DNA of 23,421 nucleotides, from positions 1-23,421 of IMG/VR virus record IMGVR_UViG_3300038463_000066; one strand, 5' to 3'. The position numbers and the translations under genes were made by a program. The DNA comes from a virus. Below the pieces are notes generated by a model. That model saw only the letters and a list, made by a program, of their open reading frames with translations, ran no database searches and was not told the origin of the DNA. Each line of letters begins with the position of its first letter. Position 1 is the first letter of the stretch. Of the stretch, positions 3,515 through 19,519 are shown piece after piece.

Positions 3515-3601
3515 ATGGCTGACAAGGAAGTCATTGCCAAAAATAATGACGTGGCTGCCTCGCAAGGAAGCGGTGCAGCCGCGTCACCTAGCGGTCAATC
3601 A
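3515..3601 (+). pseudogene. orphan portal 5' end left of the endonuclease insertion
   Basis: The 29 codons from the ATG at 3515 encode MADKEVIAKNNDVAASQ followed by a Ser/Ala/Gly-rich stretch. This resembles the start of the true portal at 4272 (MAEEIKKNNDTASAAQG). The bases around the start are also alike: AGGTGACC, then C plus ATGGCTGA. The reading frame then runs into the antisense strand of the endonuclease gene, so no portal body follows. I read it as the original or co-transferred portal start, cut off when the endonuclease gene arrived. The frame happens to stay open to 4279. The two copies differ at many positions, so this is not a recent exact duplication. Confidence 0.55.
3538..3580 (-). 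terminator. possible weak terminator for the endonuclease gene
   Basis: On the minus strand, just past the stop of the endonuclease gene, the arms GGCTGC (3575-3580) and GCAGCC (3553-3558) can pair. An inner CGC/GCG stem lies around a six-base loop, with a two-by-two mismatch between the stems. A T-rich stretch (TTATTTTT) follows about seven bases after the hairpin. The gap before the T-run is longer than in a classical intrinsic terminator, and the hairpin lies inside the orphan portal codons. It may therefore be chance. Confidence 0.25.
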
Positions 3602-4210
3602 CTAAGCCATTTTTTCCGGTTTGCTGGCGCTGCGGCCATCTTTTTTCGGTGGGGTAAACACCTTATCGAGTGGCCAGCCTTGGTCAAGACGATACTGCAG
3701 CGTTTTCATGCCTATGCCCGATTCACGCCCCCATGCGGACAAGCTAAGCGTTTTACCTTTATAAGTAATGTTTCGATTCGTAACAAGATTTTGCGATTGC
3801 TCAAGTCTAGTAGCCCAGCGGCAATTACTTTTGCAATACCCCTTATTGCCGTCTACTCGATCAATAGTATGTTTTGGGCTAGGGGGCTCGCCCATATCCA
3901 GTATGAAGTTTTCAAATTTTTCCCAACGCTTACAAACGCGAAGGCCACGGCCGCCATATCTTTTAAAAGCAAAAGCGTTTGGATTGTCGCATCGCTGCCG
4001 CATAGCATTCCAATTTTTATAAACCGGGTCAAGGTTGCGCCCATGAGTGCGCCGGAATTCCCTAAGCCAGCAACCGCACGACTTAACTTGATCATGGGTC
4101 AAGTGAGTCGTGCGTACGTCCTTTGTATTGCCGCAATCACACAAGCAATGCCAAGTTCGGTAATCAAGCTGTTTAATCACGGTCAACCGAAAAAACTTTC
4201 TACCAATCAC
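3602..4210 (-). CDS. HNH-type homing endonuclease candidate
   Basis: This 202-residue protein belongs to a type common in phage genomes. Numbered from the GTG start, Cys22, Cys24, Cys26, Cys45 and Cys47 (LCDCGN, then SCGC) look like a zinc-binding N-terminal module. A central region has RYGGRG (84-89) and IDRVDGN followed by NCRWAT (116-134), the conserved core of these HNH/AP2-associated endonuclease-like proteins. The C-terminal part (SAWGRESGIGMKTLQYRL) resembles a helix-turn-helix DNA-binding unit. I chose the GTG at 4208-4210 because a perfect AGGAGG lies five bases upstream and the family usually begins near IGRKFFRLTV. A longer ATG start at 4273 would overlap the portal start. It is the only supported minus-strand gene and is AT-richer than its neighbours, consistent with recent arrival. 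Nicking or cutting activity is inferred. Confidence 0.75.
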   Translation of the reverse strand: MIGRKFFRLTVIKQLDYRTWHCLCDCGNTKDVRTTHLTHDQVKSCGCWLREFRRTHGRNLDPVYKNWNAMRQRCDNPNAFAFKRYGGRGLRVCKRWEKFENFILDMGEPPSPKHTIDRVDGNKGYCKSNCRWATRLEQSQNLVTNRNITYKGKTLSLSAWGRESGIGMKTLQYRLDQGWPLDKVFTPPKKDGRSASKPEKMA

Positions 4211-4232
4211 GTATGCCTCCTCTTGAAAAACC

Positions 4233-4261
4233 TTTCTAAACTTAAGTATGCAGTTTGTCAA
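4233..4261 (-). promoter_or_regulatory. candidate sigma70-type promoter for the endonuclease
   Basis: On the minus strand a perfect TTGACA (4261-4256) is followed, after 17 bases, by TAGAAA (4238-4233), which matches four of six positions of the -10 consensus. A transcript would begin around 4226, just before the AGGAGG at 4221-4216. The site would let the endonuclease be expressed on its own, against the direction of the late operon. The -35 hexamer sits next to the portal ribosome binding site. Confidence 0.5.
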
Positions 4262-4271
4262 GAGGTGACCC

Positions 4272-5894
4272 ATGGCTGAAGAGATAAAAAAGAATAACGA
4301 TACGGCCAGTGCGGCACAAGGCGTTCAAGGTGGACAGCCACAAATGGATATGCGAGAGTTAGGCCAGACCGGTCTTAAGAGATTTTCAGGTTTTTTGTAC
4401 GAGGAATTCCTTAAAGAGCTTACAGGCGAGCGCGCAATTGAAGTGTACAAGGAAATGGGTTGGAATGACCCGACTTGCTACGCCATTCTTTTTGCCATCA
4501 CCATGCTCTGCCGGCGCGTCAAGTGGTTCGTGGAAGCCGCGTCATCGTCCAACCGCGAAGACCAAGCCGCCGGTGAGTTTCTTGAAACGTGCATGAACGA
4601 CATGTCTAGCACGTGGATTGACACGCTCACCGAAATCCTGTCCATGCTGCAATACGGTTACTCGGTTCACGAGATTGTTTATAAGCGCCGGTGCGGTGAC
4701 GTCTTTGACCCGTCCATGCGCTCTAAGTACGAAGACGGCCGGATTGGCTGGCGTAAAATCCCGATTCGCTCGCAAGACAGTATTTACCGTTGGCAGTTTG
4801 ACGACAATGGCGGCATTCAGGGCGTTGAGCAACTAGCCCCGCCGCACTACTACCGGATAACCATACCGGTTGAAAAAATGTTGCTCTTTCGCACCACGAC
4901 TTTCAAGAATAATCCGGAAGGGCAAAGCGTACTACGCGGCGCTTACCGAAGCTGGTGGATGAAAAAACAGATTGAAAATATTGAAGCCGTCGGCGTTGAG
5001 CGCGACCTTGCCGGCTTGCCCATGGCGCTGGTGCCGCCCGAAATCATGTCCAAGAATGCCAGCGCCGACCAAAAAGCCCAGCTTGCTGCCATCACCAATA
5101 TCGTCACCAACATTCGGCGCAACGCCCAAGAGGGCGTCATTATGCCGATGGACTATGACGCGGGCGGCAAACTACGTTTTGAATTAAAATTACTATCGAC
5201 CGGCGGCACGAGACAGTTTGACACGTCGGGAATTATCAACCGCTATGACCAGCGCATGGCTATGACCGTGCTTGCCGACTTCATGTTGCTTGGTCAAGAC
5301 AAGGTGGGCAGCTTTGCGCTTTCTAGTTCAAAGACCAATCTATTCGCAACTGCTATCGGTTCTTTCCTTGACATTATTGCCGACGTTTTCAATCGGTATG
5401 CTATCCCGCGCCTCTTTGCGCTTAATGACTTTTCAATCACCGACTACCCCAAAATCAAACATGGCAATTTGGGCAGTGTTGACCTTAACGAGCTTGGCAC
5501 CTTCCTTCGCAATTGCGCTCAGTCTGGCATCATGTTGGCCCAAGGCCCCGACGCCCAAAAGCACCTAATGGAAATTGCCGGGCTGCCGACGTCGGACACT
5601 CCCGAAGAGGAAACGGAAACCTTTATTGAGGATCCGAGCGGTAAGGCTGGCACGCCTGACGAGCAAAAAGACGATGACGTTGGCAGCGGTGCGCAACAGC
5701 CTATGGGTGCCGGGCGCCAAGGGCCGGAAGCCGAGCTTGGCCCGGAGCCCATTTCGGAAGTCGGGCAGCAACCGCCTTACGACAACACCAGCGGCACCAC
5801 CGAGGAAACCGACCAACACCGAAGCTTTCTAGGTAATAAAAACCGAAGCTTTCTAGGTAATAAAAACCGAAGCTTTCTAGGTAATAAAAAATGA
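4272..5894 (+). CDS. portal protein (DUF935/Mu gp29-like)
   Basis: This 540-residue protein should form the dodecameric ring at the capsid vertex through which DNA passes. Residues about 50-160 (GWNDPTCYAILFAITMLCRR, then EILSMLQYGYSVHEIVYKRR) match the layout of DUF935-type portals: a two-helix motif, then the 'sequence with GYSVHE' strand. Residues about 440-516 are Pro/Glu/Gly-rich and probably disordered. The last 24 residues are three copies of the octapeptide RSFLGNKN (the last ending KK), encoded by a perfect 24-base tandem repeat. The ATG at 4272 has AGGTGACC just upstream. The stop overlaps the next start in ATGA. The gene lies directly after the endonuclease insertion, and its 5' end is duplicated at 3515. 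Confidence 0.85.
   Translation: MAEEIKKNNDTASAAQGVQGGQPQMDMRELGQTGLKRFSGFLYEEFLKELTGERAIEVYKEMGWNDPTCYAILFAITMLCRRVKWFVEAASSSNREDQAAGEFLETCMNDMSSTWIDTLTEILSMLQYGYSVHEIVYKRRCGDVFDPSMRSKYEDGRIGWRKIPIRSQDSIYRWQFDDNGGIQGVEQLAPPHYYRITIPVEKMLLFRTTTFKNNPEGQSVLRGAYRSWWMKKQIENIEAVGVERDLAGLPMALVPPEIMSKNASADQKAQLAAITNIVTNIRRNAQEGVIMPMDYDAGGKLRFELKLLSTGGTRQFDTSGIINRYDQRMAMTVLADFMLLGQDKVGSFALSSSKTNLFATAIGSFLDIIADVFNRYAIPRLFALNDFSITDYPKIKHGNLGSVDLNELGTFLRNCAQSGIMLAQGPDAQKHLMEIAGLPTSDTPEEETETFIEDPSGKAGTPDEQKDDDVGSGAQQPMGAGRQGPEAELGPEPISEVGQQPPYDNTSGTTEETDQHRSFLGNKNRSFLGNKNRSFLGNKK
5819..5890 (+). repeat. three perfect tandem 24-base repeats
   Basis: Units lie at 5819-5842, 5843-5866 and 5867-5890. Each begins CCGAAGCTTTCTAGG and ends TAATAAAAA. 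They are in frame, adding RSFLGNKN three times to the portal C-terminus. The last unit ends exactly at the ATG of the next gene (5891), so its TCTAGG also serves as the only visible ribosome binding region for that gene. Identity between copies implies recent slippage or selection. Confidence 0.95.
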
Positions 5895-7611: not shown

Positions 7612-9918
7612 ATGGGCAGAGTGATTGACGCGGTTAAACGCGTCGTGGGCAAAGGTCAACCAACGTCAAGCGACGTGCATGTGAATGCACCGCTAGGCTC
7701 GCGCCGTCGTCTTAAAAAGAATGACGTCGATAATACTGACACCGACCCGCCGCTCAATAACCTCGAAGCGGAATTTATTCACGCCGCCATCGGCCGCAAG
7801 ACCATGGACGCGCCCCAACCTTTTGGTGCCGAGCCCGACGACGATGACGAGCAAGACGACGATGACGTTGAAAAGCGCCGGCACAATATTGATGACGACG
7901 AAGACGAAGACCTTGAAGACGACGAAGACTATGACGACATTGAAAAGGCTAGTCCGCGCCGTGTGGCGTCGGTTGCCGTCATGCACGGTGACCACTTGCT
8001 CATGGGAAAGCGTCGTGACAATGGTAAGTGGACGATGCCCGGTGGGCATGTTGACGACGGCGAAGACTTCCATAGTGGTGCGCTTCGGGAATTACTCGAA
8101 GAGGCTGGAATTGAAACGGACAGGCTTGACGCTCTTACCGACGTCAATGAAAAAACCGACAAAGCGGGCTTACCGCTACACGTGCAAGGCTTTGGCCTAG
8201 ACCTGACCGACGATGATCGGCCGCCCACCACCATGCAGGGGGACCCTGACGGTGAAGTGCATCGGTGGCAGTGGGTCAATACGGCCGACGGTTTGCCGGA
8301 CGATATCGCCGAAAATATGCACGTGCCACCCGAGCATAATATTTTAATGCACGCGCTCGGGCTGGCCGAGCCGGTCGAAAAAGACGACGCGCCAGACGGC
8401 TCGTGGCTGCACGACTATCAAAATCTTGTCAGCGGCATGGACTATGAAGCTGAAGACGCGGGGGACAATGACCACGACACCCACCGAGCCATTGCCGCCG
8501 CTAATCTTGCTGAAGACCCGGACCACTACAAAGACGCCCGCGCCGAAGACGGCGAAGACGTCGGCGACGGGCTCAACCTTGACCTCGGTAGCGGTCAAGC
8601 TCGGCAATCAGGTTATTTGGGTGTGGACACGTACAAATTCGATCACGGTACTATCGTCCATGATTTGACATGCGGGTTGCCCTTCCCCGATGGTTGCGCT
8701 TCCAATGTCCGCATGGTGAACGCGCTGCACACGGTTGACCACGGTGGCGACATTAAGCCGCTACTGTCTGAAATTCAGCGCGTGCTCATGCCCGGAGGTC
8801 AGTTTTATTATGAGGGACCTTCTGATATCTCGAATGATGCAGGCCAGCTTGAAGGACTGGCAGACGTCACGCCCGAAGAGGTTGGCAAAGACGCGGCCGG
8901 CGACAACAGTGACACCGGTTTCCCCGAAGGCGATAATGACACGCGATGGCATTACCACGTCTTCTCTCGCCTCGCGAATCCTGACGCAGCCGCGTCCGAT
9001 GACGCTCAGCCTCGAATCGGTCTTGCCGCGCAAGACAATCTTGGGTCGGATACTTTACTCGCCTCTGACGTTGACAGCTATTATTCTGAAGACAGCACGA
9101 CAACTGGCGCGGGTAATCGGCGGCATGGTTATCCCTCGCAAGGGGCGCTAGTCGCCAAGGGTGGACCGGGTAGCGGACCACACCCAGGCGAGGGCGGTGA
9201 AGGCAAAAAGCCTAAAGAGAAAAAAGACCCGGCCACCATGTCAGTTGGTGAGCTTAAAAAAGAATACGCTTCGCTTCATGAAAAACAATCAAAGAATACT
9301 AGCGCGCAAATTGAAGCTGGCTTCGGCACAATGCGCCCATCGGATATGCGCCAGCAACAGCCCAATCACCCCCTAACAAAAGAAATGGATGCCATAAGTG
9401 ACCGCATGTTTGCCATTCGGCATGAAGCTGAGCGGCGCGGTGGTCCGGGTTTTTCTGTTGACCAGCTTACGCGTATTCATAAGCCTATAGGTAAATCAGC
9501 ATACATCGCCAAGTCTCTCACTGGTGAAGGTTTCCAGACCACCAAGTTTTGCCCAATCTTTAAAGCTGTCGCGTCTCAACAAATTGTCTATTGCGTCGTG
9601 CTCACGCCCGACGAAGCTGACGAGCAAGATGATTTTATGGACGCCGACGAAATTGAAAAGACGGCGCACGAGTATTTACTAAAATCGCGCGTCATCGGCT
9701 CAAACCACACCAAAGCTATTCAAGCCGCGCCGGTGGAAAGCTATATCGCGCCGTGCGACTTTGACGGCAACGGGCAGTATGGTCCGCAAACCGTAAAAAA
9801 AGGCTCGTGGTGCATCGGCATCAAAGTCTTCGACAAAGACGAGTGGAAAAAAGTTGAAAAGGGCGAATATCAAGGCGTCAGCGTTGGTGGTCTTGGCTTG
9901 CGCGACCGAATGAATTGA
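7612..9918 (+). CDS. Nudix / methyltransferase-like / XkdF-type prohead protease fusion
   Basis: This 768-residue protein has a clear multi-domain order. Residues 16-28 read QPTSSDVHVNAPL, nearly the capsid protein N-terminus. Residues about 75-115 are an Asp/Glu-rich linker. Residues about 117-260 form a Nudix hydrolase with an intact box at 145-167 (Gly145, Glu151, Arg159, Glu160, Glu163, Glu164, Gly166). Residues about 320-430 look like a class I SAM methyltransferase (LNLDLGSG, GVDTYKF, LPFPDG, RVLMPGGQFYYE). KGGPGSGPHPG follows at 516-526, then a charged helical stretch. Residues about 657-768 match XkdF-type prohead protease (IVYCVVLTPDEAD, SNHTK with His699, VESYIAP, GVSVGG with Ser757); His699 and Ser757 are the candidate catalytic pair. 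The start has AAGGAAGG upstream. The protease should cleave scaffold and capsid during maturation. The substrates of the extra domains are unknown. Confidence 0.8.
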   Translation: MGRVIDAVKRVVGKGQPTSSDVHVNAPLGSRRRLKKNDVDNTDTDPPLNNLEAEFIHAAIGRKTMDAPQPFGAEPDDDDEQDDDDVEKRRHNIDDDEDEDLEDDEDYDDIEKASPRRVASVAVMHGDHLLMGKRRDNGKWTMPGGHVDDGEDFHSGALRELLEEAGIETDRLDALTDVNEKTDKAGLPLHVQGFGLDLTDDDRPPTTMQGDPDGEVHRWQWVNTADGLPDDIAENMHVPPEHNILMHALGLAEPVEKDDAPDGSWLHDYQNLVSGMDYEAEDAGDNDHDTHRAIAAANLAEDPDHYKDARAEDGEDVGDGLNLDLGSGQARQSGYLGVDTYKFDHGTIVHDLTCGLPFPDGCASNVRMVNALHTVDHGGDIKPLLSEIQRVLMPGGQFYYEGPSDISNDAGQLEGLADVTPEEVGKDAAGDNSDTGFPEGDNDTRWHYHVFSRLANPDAAASDDAQPRIGLAAQDNLGSDTLLASDVDSYYSEDSTTTGAGNRRHGYPSQGALVAKGGPGSGPHPGEGGEGKKPKEKKDPATMSVGELKKEYASLHEKQSKNTSAQIEAGFGTMRPSDMRQQQPNHPLTKEMDAISDRMFAIRHEAERRGGPGFSVDQLTRIHKPIGKSAYIAKSLTGEGFQTTKFCPIFKAVASQQIVYCVVLTPDEADEQDDFMDADEIEKTAHEYLLKSRVIGSNHTKAIQAAPVESYIAPCDFDGNGQYGPQTVKKGSWCIGIKVFDKDEWKKVEKGEYQGVSVGGLGLRDRMN

Positions 9919-15035: not shown

Positions 15036-16394
15036 ATGAGCGCATTGGACCAGATTGTTAACATTGTCATCACCCAACAAACGGCCGCCGTGCAGCAACC
15101 GTCTTTCAGCATTCCGCTGATTGTCGGCCCCAATGCGCCTAGCACGCTAACCTACTTCACCAGTGCGGCGTCGATGCTTCAGGGCGGCTACGTGACGTCG
15201 GATATTGAATACGTGTATGCGTCCGTTATGATGGAGCAAGCTCTGACGCCGACTCTTTTCGGAGTCGGACAGCGCACGGTGGCCGTGGCCCAGGTCGACA
15301 CTATCGCCGTCAGCACGCTCATAGGTACAGGCCACACCTACGTCTTTACTATCAACGGCCACTTGCTCAGCTACCTTTCAAGCTCGGACACTCAGCAATC
15401 AATCTTGACCGCGCTAAACACTCAGCTTGCGGCGATTACGCCGACACCACCGGGGGTGGGCGTGGTGACTGGCACGGGCTCGGGCGCCTTGCTCACCATC
15501 ACCGGTGCGTCGCCGGGCTTGGGGATTTCTTACACCGCCGTCGACACCGATTTGACGCACGTCAACGTCACGCCGGTCAATGGCATCGCCAACGACTTAA
15601 ATAATATCGTCAATGCTACCGGTGGCTCCAACTGGTATGGCATGTGCTTGGCTTCCAATCAAGCTTACGACATTCTGCAAGCCGCGTCGTTTATCGAGGC
15701 CACCGGCAACCGTATTTTTGTGGCCTCGTCAAATGACTCCAATATCCCGACGTCGCTGACGACAGACCTCGCTAGCCAGCTTAAAGCTTTGAGCTATACG
15801 CGTACCGCCTGCATATACTCGCCCGGTAGCTATAATCTCGGTATTGACGCCGGCTGGCTTGGTGGGCAGTTGCCGCAAACTCCGGGCGCGTCCACGTGGG
15901 ATCTAAAAACTATCGTCGGTGTTTCGCCCGACACGTTTACCGCTGGTCAAGTTACTAACATGATCGGCGTGCCCGGCGTCGGCACTGGAAAAAATGTCAA
16001 TATCTACCAAACCGTCGGCGGGGTGAATATCACCCAAAGTGGCATCATGGCCGGCGGTCAATATATCGACATAACCATTTTCATTGACTGGCTGCGTGTC
16101 ACCATGCAGACCAACATTTTCGCGTTGCTCGTCAACAATCCGAAAATCCCTTACACCGATAAGGGCCTGACGGTCGTTGAAAATGCCGTGCGCCAAACGC
16201 TCGTGCAGGGCAGCGACAACGGCGGCACCGGCGGTGTTGACTATAGCTCCATCGTCGTCAACGCGGTGCCCGTGGCTAGCATCCCGTCGAATGACCGGGC
16301 TATGCGCTACGTACCGGCCGGCTCGGTCGCTTGGTCTTGCCGCTTGACTGGTGCCATGCAAAATATCGTCGTCAATGGTGTTGTCAGCGTTTAA
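15036..16394 (+). CDS. tail sheath protein (DUF3383)
   Basis: This 452-residue protein begins MSALDQIVNIVITQQTAAV, the typical opening of DUF3383 contractile-tail sheath proteins. Residues about 75-185 include an inserted Gly/Thr-rich domain (TVAVAQVDTIAV, then STLIGTGHTYVFTINGHLL). The C-terminal half has NWYGMCLASNQAYDI, ASFIEATGNRIFVAS and DWLRVTMQTNIFALLVNN, which match the sheath core. It would polymerise around the tube and contract on infection. GAGGGA lies eight bases before the ATG. Its presence is the strongest evidence for a myovirus-type tail here. Confidence 0.88.
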   Translation: MSALDQIVNIVITQQTAAVQQPSFSIPLIVGPNAPSTLTYFTSAASMLQGGYVTSDIEYVYASVMMEQALTPTLFGVGQRTVAVAQVDTIAVSTLIGTGHTYVFTINGHLLSYLSSSDTQQSILTALNTQLAAITPTPPGVGVVTGTGSGALLTITGASPGLGISYTAVDTDLTHVNVTPVNGIANDLNNIVNATGGSNWYGMCLASNQAYDILQAASFIEATGNRIFVASSNDSNIPTSLTTDLASQLKALSYTRTACIYSPGSYNLGIDAGWLGGQLPQTPGASTWDLKTIVGVSPDTFTAGQVTNMIGVPGVGTGKNVNIYQTVGGVNITQSGIMAGGQYIDITIFIDWLRVTMQTNIFALLVNNPKIPYTDKGLTVVENAVRQTLVQGSDNGGTGGVDYSSIVVNAVPVASIPSNDRAMRYVPAGSVAWSCRLTGAMQNIVVNGVVSV

Positions 16395-16423: not shown

Positions 16424-16855
16424 ATGGCAGCCAATGTTGTTTTACAGTACGACCCAAAAGCTTTTAGCCTGATTTTAGGCGGTAATATTATTTCTGGTTT
16501 TGCCGATGACTCGTTTGTCTCGGTTGAGCGCGATATGGAAGCCTTCACCAAAAAGACCGGGGTGGACGGCATTACGACCCGCGCCAAAAATAACGTGCAG
16601 ACGGGCAAAGTTACTATCCGTCTTATGCAATCCTCAGCGTCTAACGACGTCTTATCAAACTTAGCTTTGCTGGACGAAGCTAGTAGCGGCGGCATCGTGC
16701 CACTTACTGCTAAGGACGGCTCGGGCCGCTCCATTTTTAGCAGCGAATCGGCTTGGGTCCAGAAAATGGCTAAATCGGAATGGAAAAAAGACACCAATGA
16801 AAACGAATGGGTTATTGATTGTGGCGCTCTAGCCGTTTTTGTCGGGGGCAATTGA
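16424..16855 (+). CDS. tail tube protein (DUF3277), first copy
   Basis: This 143-residue protein starts MAANVVLQYDPKAFSLILGG and has the DUF3277 pattern: IISGFADDSFVSVERD, then TTRAKNN, TIRLMQSSASND, and a final FVGGN. DUF3277 proteins lie after the DUF3383 sheath gene and are the tube subunits. AGGGGAG stands upstream of the ATG. A paralogue follows six bases after the stop. By hand alignment the two share about half of their residues. Confidence 0.85.
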   Translation: MAANVVLQYDPKAFSLILGGNIISGFADDSFVSVERDMEAFTKKTGVDGITTRAKNNVQTGKVTIRLMQSSASNDVLSNLALLDEASSGGIVPLTAKDGSGRSIFSSESAWVQKMAKSEWKKDTNENEWVIDCGALAVFVGGN

Positions 16856-16861
16856 TAATTC

Positions 16862-17299
16862 GTGGCTGCTAACACCGTCCTAAATTATGACCCCAAAAAA
16901 ATCCAACTCATTGTTGGCGGGTATATCATTGGCGGTTTTGCTGACGACGAATTCCTTGAAGTTGAGCGCGACGTCGACGCCTACACCAAATATGTCGGCG
17001 TCGGCGGTGAAACGACTCGAATTAAAACCACCAATAGGTCCGGGAAGCTTACGATTAAGCTCATGCAAAGCTCGCCGTCAAATGACGAGCTTTCACTTTT
17101 AACTGAGCTTGACGAATTTGGCGACGCTGGCGCTGTCCCTCTGTTGGCGCGCGACGGCAACGGCTCTACTCTCTTTACCTCGGTTTTTTGCTGGGTCAAG
17201 CGCTTCCCAAAAGTTATGTGGCGCCGGGAAGTCCAAGTATATGAGTGGGTGCTAGACACCTCTAGCTTGTCAATTTTTGTCGGAGGTATAAGCACATGA
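16862..17299 (+). CDS. tail tube-like protein (DUF3277), second copy
   Basis: This 145-residue protein is a paralogue of the preceding one: MAANTVLNYDPKKIQLIVGG, IIGGFADDEFLEVERD, TIKLMQSSPSND and FVGGIST. The start is GTG at 16862; the nearest GGGGG lies about 13 bases upstream, a weak site that may lower expression. The stop overlaps the next ATG by four bases (17296-17299). It could be a second tube subunit, a tube initiator, or a variant used at one end of the tail. The conserved core is intact, so it is not decaying. Confidence 0.82.
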   Translation: MAANTVLNYDPKKIQLIVGGYIIGGFADDEFLEVERDVDAYTKYVGVGGETTRIKTTNRSGKLTIKLMQSSPSNDELSLLTELDEFGDAGAVPLLARDGNGSTLFTSVFCWVKRFPKVMWRREVQVYEWVLDTSSLSIFVGGIST

Positions 17300-17787
17300 G
17301 AGAGTTGGTTGGCGTCACGGTCGACGATAAGCTTTACGAGTTTCAGCAATTCACCACGACGGTAGGGCTTAAAACCTTGAGCCACCTCGCCCGCATTATT
17401 GGTGAACCGCTCATGCTGGCGCTTGGGGTATTTTTTAAAGACGCGCCGGCGGAAGGTGCGCCTAAAGTCCCTTTCGGCCAGCGCGAGGTCAACACCGACG
17501 TGCTCGCTAAAGCCGTCCACGCCCTGATTACTCAGCTTAGTGGTGAAGGCACGGACGAAGCCATACGCCTGATAAAAACCTTGGTCAGCGGTGACGGTGT
17601 CCTTTGTGACCACAAAAAAGTTATTTTTGACGAGCATTTTCGTGGCGCGGAAGGTCTAGCGCATTTAGCCAAAGTGGTGCGCGCGGCTCTTGAGGCACAA
17701 TACGGAAATTTCTTAGGCGCCGTGTCCGCCCAAATGTCCGGGCCGGCAGTCACGGCGGTCAAGGGTCCGGCGGTTATTCGCCGGTAG
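17296..17787 (+). CDS. tail assembly chaperone (short form)
   Basis: This 163-residue protein lies between tube and tape measure genes, the fixed place of tail assembly chaperones. It begins MRELVGVTVDDKLYEF, and its body is helical (LSHLARIIGEPLMLAL, ALITQLSGEGTDEAIRLIK, AHLAKVVRAALEAQYGNFLG). Ribosome binding site GGAGG lies ten bases before the ATG. Near the 3' end, AAATTTC at 17706-17712 is a canonical slippery heptamer in the right frame (A AAT TTC). The -1 frame is open from there to 17978, so a longer form is likely. It should bind the tape measure protein during tube assembly. Confidence 0.78.
   Translation: MRELVGVTVDDKLYEFQQFTTTVGLKTLSHLARIIGEPLMLALGVFFKDAPAEGAPKVPFGQREVNTDVLAKAVHALITQLSGEGTDEAIRLIKTLVSGDGVLCDHKKVIFDEHFRGAEGLAHLAKVVRAALEAQYGNFLGAVSAQMSGPAVTAVKGPAVIRR
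17706..17712 (+). promoter_or_regulatory. slippery heptamer AAATTTC for -1 frameshift
   Basis: The zero frame reads A AAT TTC, so slippage by one base gives AAA TTT with all wobble-compatible pairs preserved. It obeys the X XXY YYZ rule used by most tail chaperone genes. The -1 frame has a stop at 17691-17693, just before it, and stays open from 17694 to 17975, so the shift must occur after 17693. A second, weaker option CAAGGGT lies at 17760-17766. Confidence 0.6.
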
Positions 17788-17978
17788 CGCCTGACTCGGT
17801 ACCTTGGGAAATATGGCGGTGCGTCCTAGAGGGAGGTTGCTCATTGATTGAAATACAAACTCAATGGAGCGTCACCGACCTACAAGACTGCCATGAAGCT
17901 CTAGACGTTAAGCATGACCTTGAGTGCGCGGCGGTTGAAGACGCTAAACGGCGAGCGGCGCAAAGGAATGACCGATGA
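17712..17978 (+). CDS. -1 frame extension of the tail assembly chaperone
   Basis: Read in the -1 frame from the slippery site, this adds 88 residues to the first 139 of the short form, giving a 227-residue product. The added part includes DSVPWEIWRCVLEGG, then EIQTQWSVTDLQDCHEALDV and an Ala/Arg-rich helix. This is the usual composition of the frameshifted C-terminal part of chaperones of the lambda GT type. The stop at 17976-17978 overlaps the tape measure ATG at 17975. Alternatively, GGGAGG at 17831-17836 and a TTG at 17844 could start a separate 44-residue protein from the same frame. Confidence 0.65.
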   Translation, partial: LRRRVRPNVRAGSHGGQGSGGYSPVAPDSVPWEIWRCVLEGGCSLIEIQTQWSVTDLQDCHEALDVKHDLECAAVEDAKRRAAQRNDR

Positions 17979-19519
17979 TCATAAGCGAGCTTTTAGCCCA
18001 TATCGGTTTTGAAATCGAGGAGGCCCCGCTCGAAAAGTTAGAAAAGGGTTTAGACGCGATTAAAGAGCGTTTGAATCTAATCATTGGCTTTGAAGCCGTC
18101 ACTAAATTATATGAACTGTCGGAGCGTTTTGCTCACTGGGGTGAAGAGCTACACCTAACAGCCGAAAACCTGGGGATGACGACTGAATCACTCCAAGGTC
18201 TAAATTACGCGGCTGAGAAAAGCGGCGTCAGCCAAGAAATGCTGAGCACAAGCTTGGCGCGGTTAGCGCGGCAGCTTTACGCGGCTAAGACCGGCAGCAA
18301 GGAAGCCCAAGAGCAATTCGCTAAGGCTGGTATTTCCGGGGAGCAAATCACCCGGTTTAAAACCACCGAAGACGCGCTTTATGGTGTGTCGGCCGCGCTA
18401 GCTAGTGTCGAAGACCCGATTAAGCGTATGGCGATCGCCCAGCAAATGCTCGGGCGCGGTGGTACGCGTCTTATCGCCTTCCTCGGTAAAGGGCCAGCGG
18501 CTATCCGCGAAGAGGCAGCCGAGTTAAAAAAACCAGGGCTGCAACTGAGCGGCCCGCAGATTGGCGCCCTGGTGCAGGTCGAACACGCCTTCGTCAAGCT
18601 TCACGCCGTAATGCACGCCATAGGGGCGCAGATTGCTTCCTTCGTCGCTCCGACGTTTACCTACCTTATAGACAAGTTTACCGAGCTATATGGTGCCAAT
18701 AAAAACGTCATTGGCTCAGGCATTCACGTTTGGCTCACCGTGCTTTCCAACATGCTGGCTTATGCCGGCGGCTTAGTGGCGGGGCTGACGCAACGGTTTC
18801 TTGGCATGTCTGGCGCCATTAAACAGGCTTTTAAAGCAGAAGGTATGGCCGGCGTTTTTGAGTTATTAGAGAAAAAAGTCAAGGAAGCTTTCAGCGACGA
18901 AAATCTGAAAAAGCTCGAAGACGCTTTACAGTCAATGCTTGGCTCAACTGCCTTCGCGGAAGCCATAAAAAGTGCTCTCAATATTGCGCTGATTGTTAGT
19001 GGCTTTGCTGCGTCCATTGGTTTTGAAATTGCTAAGGGCTTTCTCAAAGCGTTGCTTAAAGTCGTCCCGGATATTTTGGGCACCAAATCTTTAGCCGACG
19101 TTAATTCAATGGTGGGGTATGGGCTTTCCGCCGAAGATTCCGGTGGCATCGTCGGCAAGCAAAATAACGAAGAATCTTACGGTACGCGGGCGTTAAATGC
19201 CGTACTCAACCAAGGCGAAGGTGAAACTCTACCTGGCATCGCTGCCGATGCTATATACAACGGGGCAAAAAAACTCTTTGGCGGTGGCACTGGCTTAGCC
19301 ACAACGCCGAGTGCGGCACTACCTCAACCGCAAGACACACCCAACGTGGCTGGCGCGTCGATTGACGCCCCTATCACCAATAACATTTACATTCCCCCGG
19401 GCGCGACCGTGCAACAGGCGCGGGAGCTTGGTGAAGCGGCCGCCGAAGCATCGCACAAAAAGCTTTTTGAATTTATCATGCGTGGCACTTATCAAAGTTT
19501 ACCGGCGGGAGGTAGCTAA
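17975..19519 (+). CDS. tail tape measure protein
   Basis: This 514-residue protein has the opening of a tape measure protein: a helical N-terminus (LEKLEKGLDAIKERLNLIIG), then ENLGMTTESLQGLNYAAEKS and LARLARQLYAAKTGSKEAQE, and later DPIKRMAIAQQMLGRGGTRL, common in this family. A hydrophobic region follows (SNMLAYAGGLVAGLTQRFL, NIALIVSGFAASIGFEIAKG). The C-terminus is Pro/Ala-rich, then EAAAEASHKKLFEFIMRG. Tape measure length sets tail length, so a protein this short suggests a short tail. No lysozyme or peptidase domain is seen. The start overlaps the chaperone extension stop in ATGA. Confidence 0.83.
   Translation: MIISELLAHIGFEIEEAPLEKLEKGLDAIKERLNLIIGFEAVTKLYELSERFAHWGEELHLTAENLGMTTESLQGLNYAAEKSGVSQEMLSTSLARLARQLYAAKTGSKEAQEQFAKAGISGEQITRFKTTEDALYGVSAALASVEDPIKRMAIAQQMLGRGGTRLIAFLGKGPAAIREEAAELKKPGLQLSGPQIGALVQVEHAFVKLHAVMHAIGAQIASFVAPTFTYLIDKFTELYGANKNVIGSGIHVWLTVLSNMLAYAGGLVAGLTQRFLGMSGAIKQAFKAEGMAGVFELLEKKVKEAFSDENLKKLEDALQSMLGSTAFAEAIKSALNIALIVSGFAASIGFEIAKGFLKALLKVVPDILGTKSLADVNSMVGYGLSAEDSGGIVGKQNNEESYGTRALNAVLNQGEGETLPGIAADAIYNGAKKLFGGGTGLATTPSAALPQPQDTPNVAGASIDAPITNNIYIPPGATVQQARELGEAAAEASHKKLFEFIMRGTYQSLPAGGS

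Follow-up and report, generated by a model that had tools for sequence, protein, structure and literature searches.

The tail assembly chaperone region

The window analysed here (the whole 23,421 bases of the virus record IMGVR_UViG_3300038463_000066) is a tailed-phage structural module, and its chaperone gene raises the question of what the bases between it and the tape measure gene encode. The features of the region are collected in Table 1. The order of the tube-like, chaperone and tape measure genes matches the lambda G/GT-type layout, and the tape measure gene is followed by a Dit-like protein and then by plug-like and hub-like proteins. The chaperone scored 37.1 bits against Phage_TAC_15 (PF21822), for which the cut-off is 22.

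A sequence-only reading of this DNA had proposed that the gap between the two genes, empty in standard gene calls, hides a -1 frameshift product of the chaperone. The gap of 187 bases indeed contains no plus-strand ORF of at least 50 residues from a start codon. The open -1 frame was found as described, and the heptamer AAATTTC lies in the proper phase, since the chaperone frame divides it as A AAT TTC. Slipping there joins 139 residues to 88, which agrees with the 227-residue fusion that had been predicted. There are no other in-phase heptamers in the overlap; CCCAAAT at 17729 was considered as a slip site and rejected since it is out of phase.

Table 1. Coordinates of features in the chaperone region of the window
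Feature	Position	Strand	Evidence or remark
Tail sheath	15036-16394		phrog_205, E 1.3e-73
Tail-tube-like paralogues, adjacent pair	16424-16855 and 16862-17299	+	KPP10_Orf10, E 1.5e-9 and 1.4e-6; both phrog_280
Tail assembly chaperone, short product TAC-N, 163 aa	17296-17787	+	Phage_TAC_15, E 5.5e-9; phrog_1613 (tail assembly chaperone), E 6.3e-6; lies between the tube-like genes and the tape measure gene
GAGG, a Shine-Dalgarno-like candidate stimulator (GGAGG in many relatives, weakened here)	17692-17695	+	ends 10 nt before the heptamer; putative function
Open -1 frame relative to the chaperone	17694-17975	+	stop TGA at 17976-17978, overlapping the tape measure ATG as ATGA
Slippery heptamer AAATTTC	17706-17712	+	chaperone frame A AAT TTC; -1 frame AAA TTT C; correct phase for a -1 slip
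-1-frame part of the long product TAC-NC	17712-17978	+	88 aa plus TGA; homologues in the 34 diverged contigs; differences in the -1 frame most frequent at codon position 3
Conserved C-domain core, WEIWR ... HEALDV	17805-17909	+	alignments; confident helices in the AlphaFold2 model
GGGAGG and TTG	17831-17836 and 17844-17846	+	TTG in the -1 frame; GGGAGG-TTG codes Glu-Gly-Gly; not conserved; probably incidental
Tape measure protein	17975-19519	+	best E 8.4e-26 among phrog_9483 and further tape measure families; ATGA shared by its start codon and the -1 stop

Considered by itself, the window is suggestive only. In dinucleotide shuffles, a -1 frame open over the 62 codons past the chaperone stop had P = 0.030 and an in-phase XXXYYYZ within the overlap had P = 0.275, which makes the arrangement no more than mildly unusual. 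What places the -1 arrangement beyond chance is its conservation in diverged relatives.

Several other observations were made in the window. The tube-like pair (16424-17299, plus strand) looks like a duplication of the kind described for tube genes of Vandenendeviridae in the available text of a recent paper (PMC12846349). The head module contains an unusual fusion next to its portal and Mu F-like genes: one ORF of 768 aa (7612-9918, plus strand) matches a NUDIX domain (E 1.1e-16) and an XkdF-type phage protease (E 1.2e-29), and a further stretch weakly resembles a methyltransferase (E 1.2e-4). At the C-terminus of the portal-like protein (Portal_Mu, E 5.8e-30), the peptide NRSFLGNK is repeated three times in tandem (5820-5894, plus strand). 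Amid the structural genes, both strands carry long open frames at 3515-4279 (plus) and 3602-4273 (minus), neither with a Pfam match at E <= 0.01; by eye, the 223-aa minus-strand frame resembles an HNH-type homing endonuclease.

Conservation and coding character of the tail

Five IMG/VR scans yielded 34 distinct diverged contigs, plus the near-identical L002, and the 35 distinct contigs referred to below are these 34 and the window. Loci are numbered L001 to L047, of which 13 are not counted: L001 (the window); L002 and three further loci of its contig, which scarcely differ from the window; and 8 that duplicate contigs counted already. One of the scans relied partly on the peptide query E[AV]QYGNF, in which the residues are constrained and the codons are free. 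Neither alignment covers all of the 35: A5 has 32 rows and A6 has 28. One scan of bacterial genomes with A4 found no relative.

In 35/35 distinct contigs, a homologous tail is encoded in frame -1 relative to the chaperone, as judged by tblastn where both parts matched and by ORFs for L023-L026, where tblastn missed the chaperone and the ORFs give the same -1 relation. All 21 loci retrieved with the chaperone as query had the tail, and all 28 relatives scanned matched Phage_TAC_15 (E <= 0.01). The main interpretation of the sequence-only reading, a -1 frameshift product of the chaperone, was supported, with a heptamer accompanying the tail in every one of the 35. That reading had also named relatives lacking both the heptamer and the open -1 frame, or carrying the tail as a separate, well-initiated gene, as evidence that would speak against it; every relative had both, and 26 of the 35 loci had no start ahead of the conserved core.

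Past the chaperone stop, differences in the -1 frame numbered 2234, 1775 and 3908 at codon positions 1, 2 and 3 (178 pairs of 55-98% identity, the pairs not being independent). By this measure, the tail is evolving as a protein. At the tail stop, ATGA is seen in 17/35 loci (counted by eye). In the alignment, a basic FFRRxxR directly follows the slip site, then comes a variable linker, and then the core W-x-x-[WHQ]-R ... L..[IV]Q..WS.DDL.[DE]AHEALD. The AlphaFold2 model of the tail (pLDDT 81.8) consists of a disordered linker and three high-confidence helices. Compared with structure libraries, this model had no viral match at E <= 0.001, the best being an uncharacterized phage protein at 9.3e-3; the chaperone model (pLDDT 86.0) had no match in the PDB at E <= 0.001, and profile searches of PDB sequences returned nothing credible. 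In a GC-rich subgroup (L014-L024), the chaperone stop lies 130-136 nt past the slip site, so that the short product, which has a Ser/Thr/Pro-rich end, extends in another frame into the beginning of the C-domain core.

The main alternative, found in some phage annotations, is that the tail is a small gene of its own, with translation beginning either at TTG 17844 after GGGAGG (44 aa) or through coupling to the end of chaperone translation. GGGAGG-N7-TTG is a plausible initiation site, L008 likewise has an ATG preceded by GGAGG, and within the tail segment a hypothetical protein of its own is annotated in the records of the phages BP63 and 254. However, no ATG, GTG or TTG exists in the -1 frame from the slip site to the core in 26/35 loci (in 3 of the 26, the core motif was unrecognised and a fallback position was used), and the unconserved TTG of the window would initiate within the core. 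A separate gene also leaves the heptamer and its codon choice, described below, unexplained, and we consider it very unlikely. The GGGAGG/TTG pair had been put forward in the sequence-only reading as a second way to translate the end of the tail. Both elements exist, with the TTG in the -1 frame, but as a conserved feature the start found no support, because it loses the W-x-x-W-R half of the domain and because a start preceded by GGAGG was seen at only one other of the 35 loci (L008). A sub-product from TTG 17844 may still be made in addition to the frameshift product.

Codon choice at the probable slip site

The same codons hold an in-phase heptamer in 35/35 contigs: AAATTTT, TTTTTTC/A/G/T or both, and AAATTTC in the window, which is the sole locus with TTC in its slip site. 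The slip-site codons are kept against local codon bias. The first Phe codon is TTT in 34/35 loci, the window being the exception, compared to a mean TTT share of 39% among Phe codons over loci. Asn at the slip site, where present, is AAT in 22/22 (mean use, 37%), and the Gly before it is GGA in 17/21, compared to 9.4% of the 381 other Gly codons in the same genes. The four Gly-Asn loci without GGA all have the T6 heptamer. Conversely, the six loci without a T6 run (the window, L004, L008, L037, L046 and L047) all read GGA AAT TTY, with AAATTT intact. Such either-or retention of AAATTT or T6 would be expected if selection maintains at least one slip site, and it speaks for AAATTTC as the working site in the window. 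According to the available text of one study, heptamers of the class R_RR.U_UU.Y, to which A_AA.U_UU.C belongs, are shifty in E. coli beyond what their mixed composition predicts, and the excess was attributed, probably, to the UUY codon (PMC4066793). On this evidence, it is highly probable that the slip takes place at 17706-17712.

Fusion by transcriptional rather than ribosomal slippage was also considered. T6-T7 runs, on which RNA polymerase can slip, occur in most relatives. The window has only AAA-TTT, however, and the conserved A_AAT in codon phase is not needed for polymerase slippage; this explanation appears slightly less probable even than a separate gene. A further alternative is that chaperone and tail are truly one frame, split by an error in sequencing or assembly or by recent breakage of the gene. 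The tail is homologous only across frames, as expected of a broken gene, but the probability of this alternative seems negligible and the conserved two-frame arrangement in effect refutes it: an assembly slip is unlikely because a second contig, L002, has this locus too and differs from the window by a single base in 8,489 bp, and the 34 diverged contigs and the named complete phage genomes keep the -1 relation.

An upstream element and downstream RNA structure

Many relatives read CTGGAGGTGCAGTACGGAAATTTTTTC upstream of the slip site; here the spacing from the end of GGAGG is 10 nt to AAATTT and 13 nt to TTTTTT. The Glu codon that forms GGAGG is GAG in 33/33 loci with Glu at this position, compared to 178/290 Glu codons elsewhere in the same genes. 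L009, L044 and L045 have GAG here although their use of GAG elsewhere is 10-20%. Anti-Shine-Dalgarno pairing along the gene peaks at this element, with a mean of about -10.4 kcal/mol compared to -1.5 overall. Synonymous shuffles of the local peptide gave a combined p of 5e-6, which is indicative only, because the product over loci takes related sequences to be independent; singly, p was below 0.05 in 5/35 loci. The GAGG of the window is the weakest element among the loci (synonymous-shuffle p 0.36). A stimulatory Shine-Dalgarno sequence is found at about the same spacing in dnaX, and the available text of one paper mentions such a sequence for IS911 (PMC4066793). The upstream GGAGG-like element likely stimulates the frameshift.

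Folds of the 60 nt downstream showed no consistent signal over the 35 loci (mean z -0.89; 7/35 below -2; window 0.14), and downstream RNA structure was rejected as a stimulator for this reason.

Domain families and named phages

Of 32 aligned tails, 24 matched phrog_4364 (best E 6.4e-11), 10 matched phrog_4625 and 5 matched phrog_3976, all at E <= 0.01. The window tail scored E 0.00089 against phrog_3976 and E 0.0022 against phrog_4625, and the whole open frame scored E 0.021 against phrog_4364. DUF6889 (PF21829) was matched by 11/32 aligned tails at E <= 0.1; when ten tails were tested singly, one, L043, exceeded the cut-off (24.6 vs 23.9). The window tail had no Pfam match at E <= 1, hence none to DUF6889 or to DUF1799 (PF08809), and DUF1799 was absent among the Pfam matches of the 32 tails at E <= 0.1. 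Judged by these scores, the window tail is a relative of DUF6889 and not a member. The three PHROG families and DUF6889 are all labelled as of unknown function.

Named relatives of the window chaperone were sought by tblastn, which gave 7 weak matches only (E 0.2 or worse); the tape measure gave 14 distant matches, and the named phages were reached through the tails of relatives as queries. Five named groups (Rosemountvirus, Kleczkowskavirus, Proteus, Erwinia and RcapMu) have the tail in -1 with an in-phase XXXYYYZ. A homologous or similar -1 tail accompanies TTTTTTC in Rosemountvirus yarpen and BP63, CCCTTTT and TTTTTTC in Kleczkowskavirus RHph_Y55, and TTTTTTG in Proteus phage ZX7 and Erwinia phage LS-2018a. 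These phages differ in having neither an AAATTT heptamer at the site nor GGAGG at a spacing of 10-13 nt. Tails of the named phages also match among phrog_4364, phrog_4625 and phrog_3976, and the chaperones of all four tested records with annotated genes (yarpen, 254, RHph_Y55 and ZX7) match Phage_TAC_15. No gene is called for the tail in the yarpen, RHph_Y55 and ZX7 records; in those of BP63 and 254, it is a hypothetical protein. In the record of Rhodobacter phage RcapMu, a potential -1 frameshift is marked between the chaperone-like gp49 and gp50, a small ORF that precedes the tape measure gene, and the RcapMu tail weakly resembles that of the window in tblastn (E 2). In contrast to the window, the RcapMu tail is a DUF1799 (E 5.9e-11), a family that the window tail does not match, and its slip site is GGGAAAC.

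Pseudomonas phage vB_PseuGesM_254 (L050, 1373-1420) has a -1 tail and reads TCC GTT TTT ACA, with no in-phase XXXYYYZ. This suggests slippage on the T run, as in the published GTTTTT motif. That motif comes from a paper of December 2025, which, in its available text, argues for a chaperone frameshift in Vandenendeviridae (56 alleles from 159 genomes) and Andersonviridae (PMC12846349). Those phages, among them Adele, resemble the window in their duplicated tube genes and in a tail, ahead of the tape measure gene, that earlier annotation had treated as a hypothetical protein (PMC12846349). They also share a Phage_TAC_15 chaperone, a likeness tested on phage 254, which is of similar size and whose kinship to the group is assumed. 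The motif differs: GTTTTT is absent at the window slip site, which reads GGAAATTTC, and the relatives of the window read GGAAATTTTTTC. An upstream Shine-Dalgarno-like element goes unmentioned in the available text on the Vandenendeviridae and Andersonviridae frameshift (PMC12846349).

A literature search, with most subscription papers outside it, did not find the overlapping A_AAT_TTY/T_TTT_TTN site, GGAGG 10-13 nt upstream, the C-domain identity of phrog_4364, phrog_4625, phrog_3976 and DUF6889, any mention of DUF6889 or PF21822, or a joint treatment of Rosemountvirus, frameshift and chaperone.

Discussion

We conclude that a -1 programmed ribosomal frameshift in the tail assembly chaperone gene, as in lambda G/GT, is very probably the explanation of this locus. 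A programmed shift giving products of 163 and 227 aa is favored because the -1 tail and the heptamer are conserved, the codons at the slip site are abnormal, the tail is under protein-level selection, 26/35 loci have no start ahead of the core and the named relatives agree. Points that speak against it are the TTC and the weak GAGG that set the window apart, the lack of a distinct downstream structure, the modest improbability of the window taken alone and the -1 tail of phage 254 with no XXXYYYZ.

According to this mechanism, most ribosomes would read through the chaperone gene to produce TAC-N. A minority, with tRNA-Asn and tRNA-Phe on AAT TTC, would slip one base back onto AAA TTT and read to 17975, producing TAC-NC, which would consist of TAC-N minus its last 24 residues, a basic flexible linker (LRRRVRP...) and the helical C-domain. 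Lambda, with the slip site GGGAAAG, differs from the window in its chaperone family and slip site, and its tail has no detected sequence relation to that of the window. The likeness lies in the arrangement, as the available text of one paper describes for gpG and gpGT: a short chaperone and a -1-frameshifted long one, coded between the tube and tape measure genes, with the N part binding the tape measure protein and the C part binding the tube protein (PMC5009743). By analogy, the abundant short form would cover the tape measure protein of this phage, and the scarce long form would bring in tail tube subunits. The sequences directly show the frame, the heptamer, the conservation of both and selection on the tail as a protein; from these and from the analogy we infer that slippage occurs, how often, what each part binds and whether the GGAGG-like element upstream assists.

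A wider proposal is that the shift in this chaperone lineage is driven by a cassette, GGAGG-N10-AAATTTTTTC, in which an upstream stimulator and two overlapping heptamers, never both lost, replace a downstream structure, and that the three PHROG families and DUF6889 are frameshifted C-domains. The window phage would then have a weakened version (GAGG, AAATTTC). We consider the chances for and against this proposal to be evenly balanced. If it is true, the GAGG and AAATTTC of the window predict a lower ratio of long to short product.

The mechanism itself is long known, as in lambda G/GT, and has been argued for Vandenendeviridae and Andersonviridae; the window probably adds a different slip site. 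Tail-chaperone frameshifting is common to many tailed phages and specialists will not be surprised by the general mechanism; the second half in the chaperone family of the window had until now escaped recognition. The either-or pair of overlapping slip sites, together with the invariant upstream GAG, makes the role of a Shine-Dalgarno stimulator in tail-chaperone frameshifting testable by reporter. A stretch that gene callers leave empty or call a hypothetical protein would become the second half of a known assembly factor, and a candidate function is offered for several families of unknown function.
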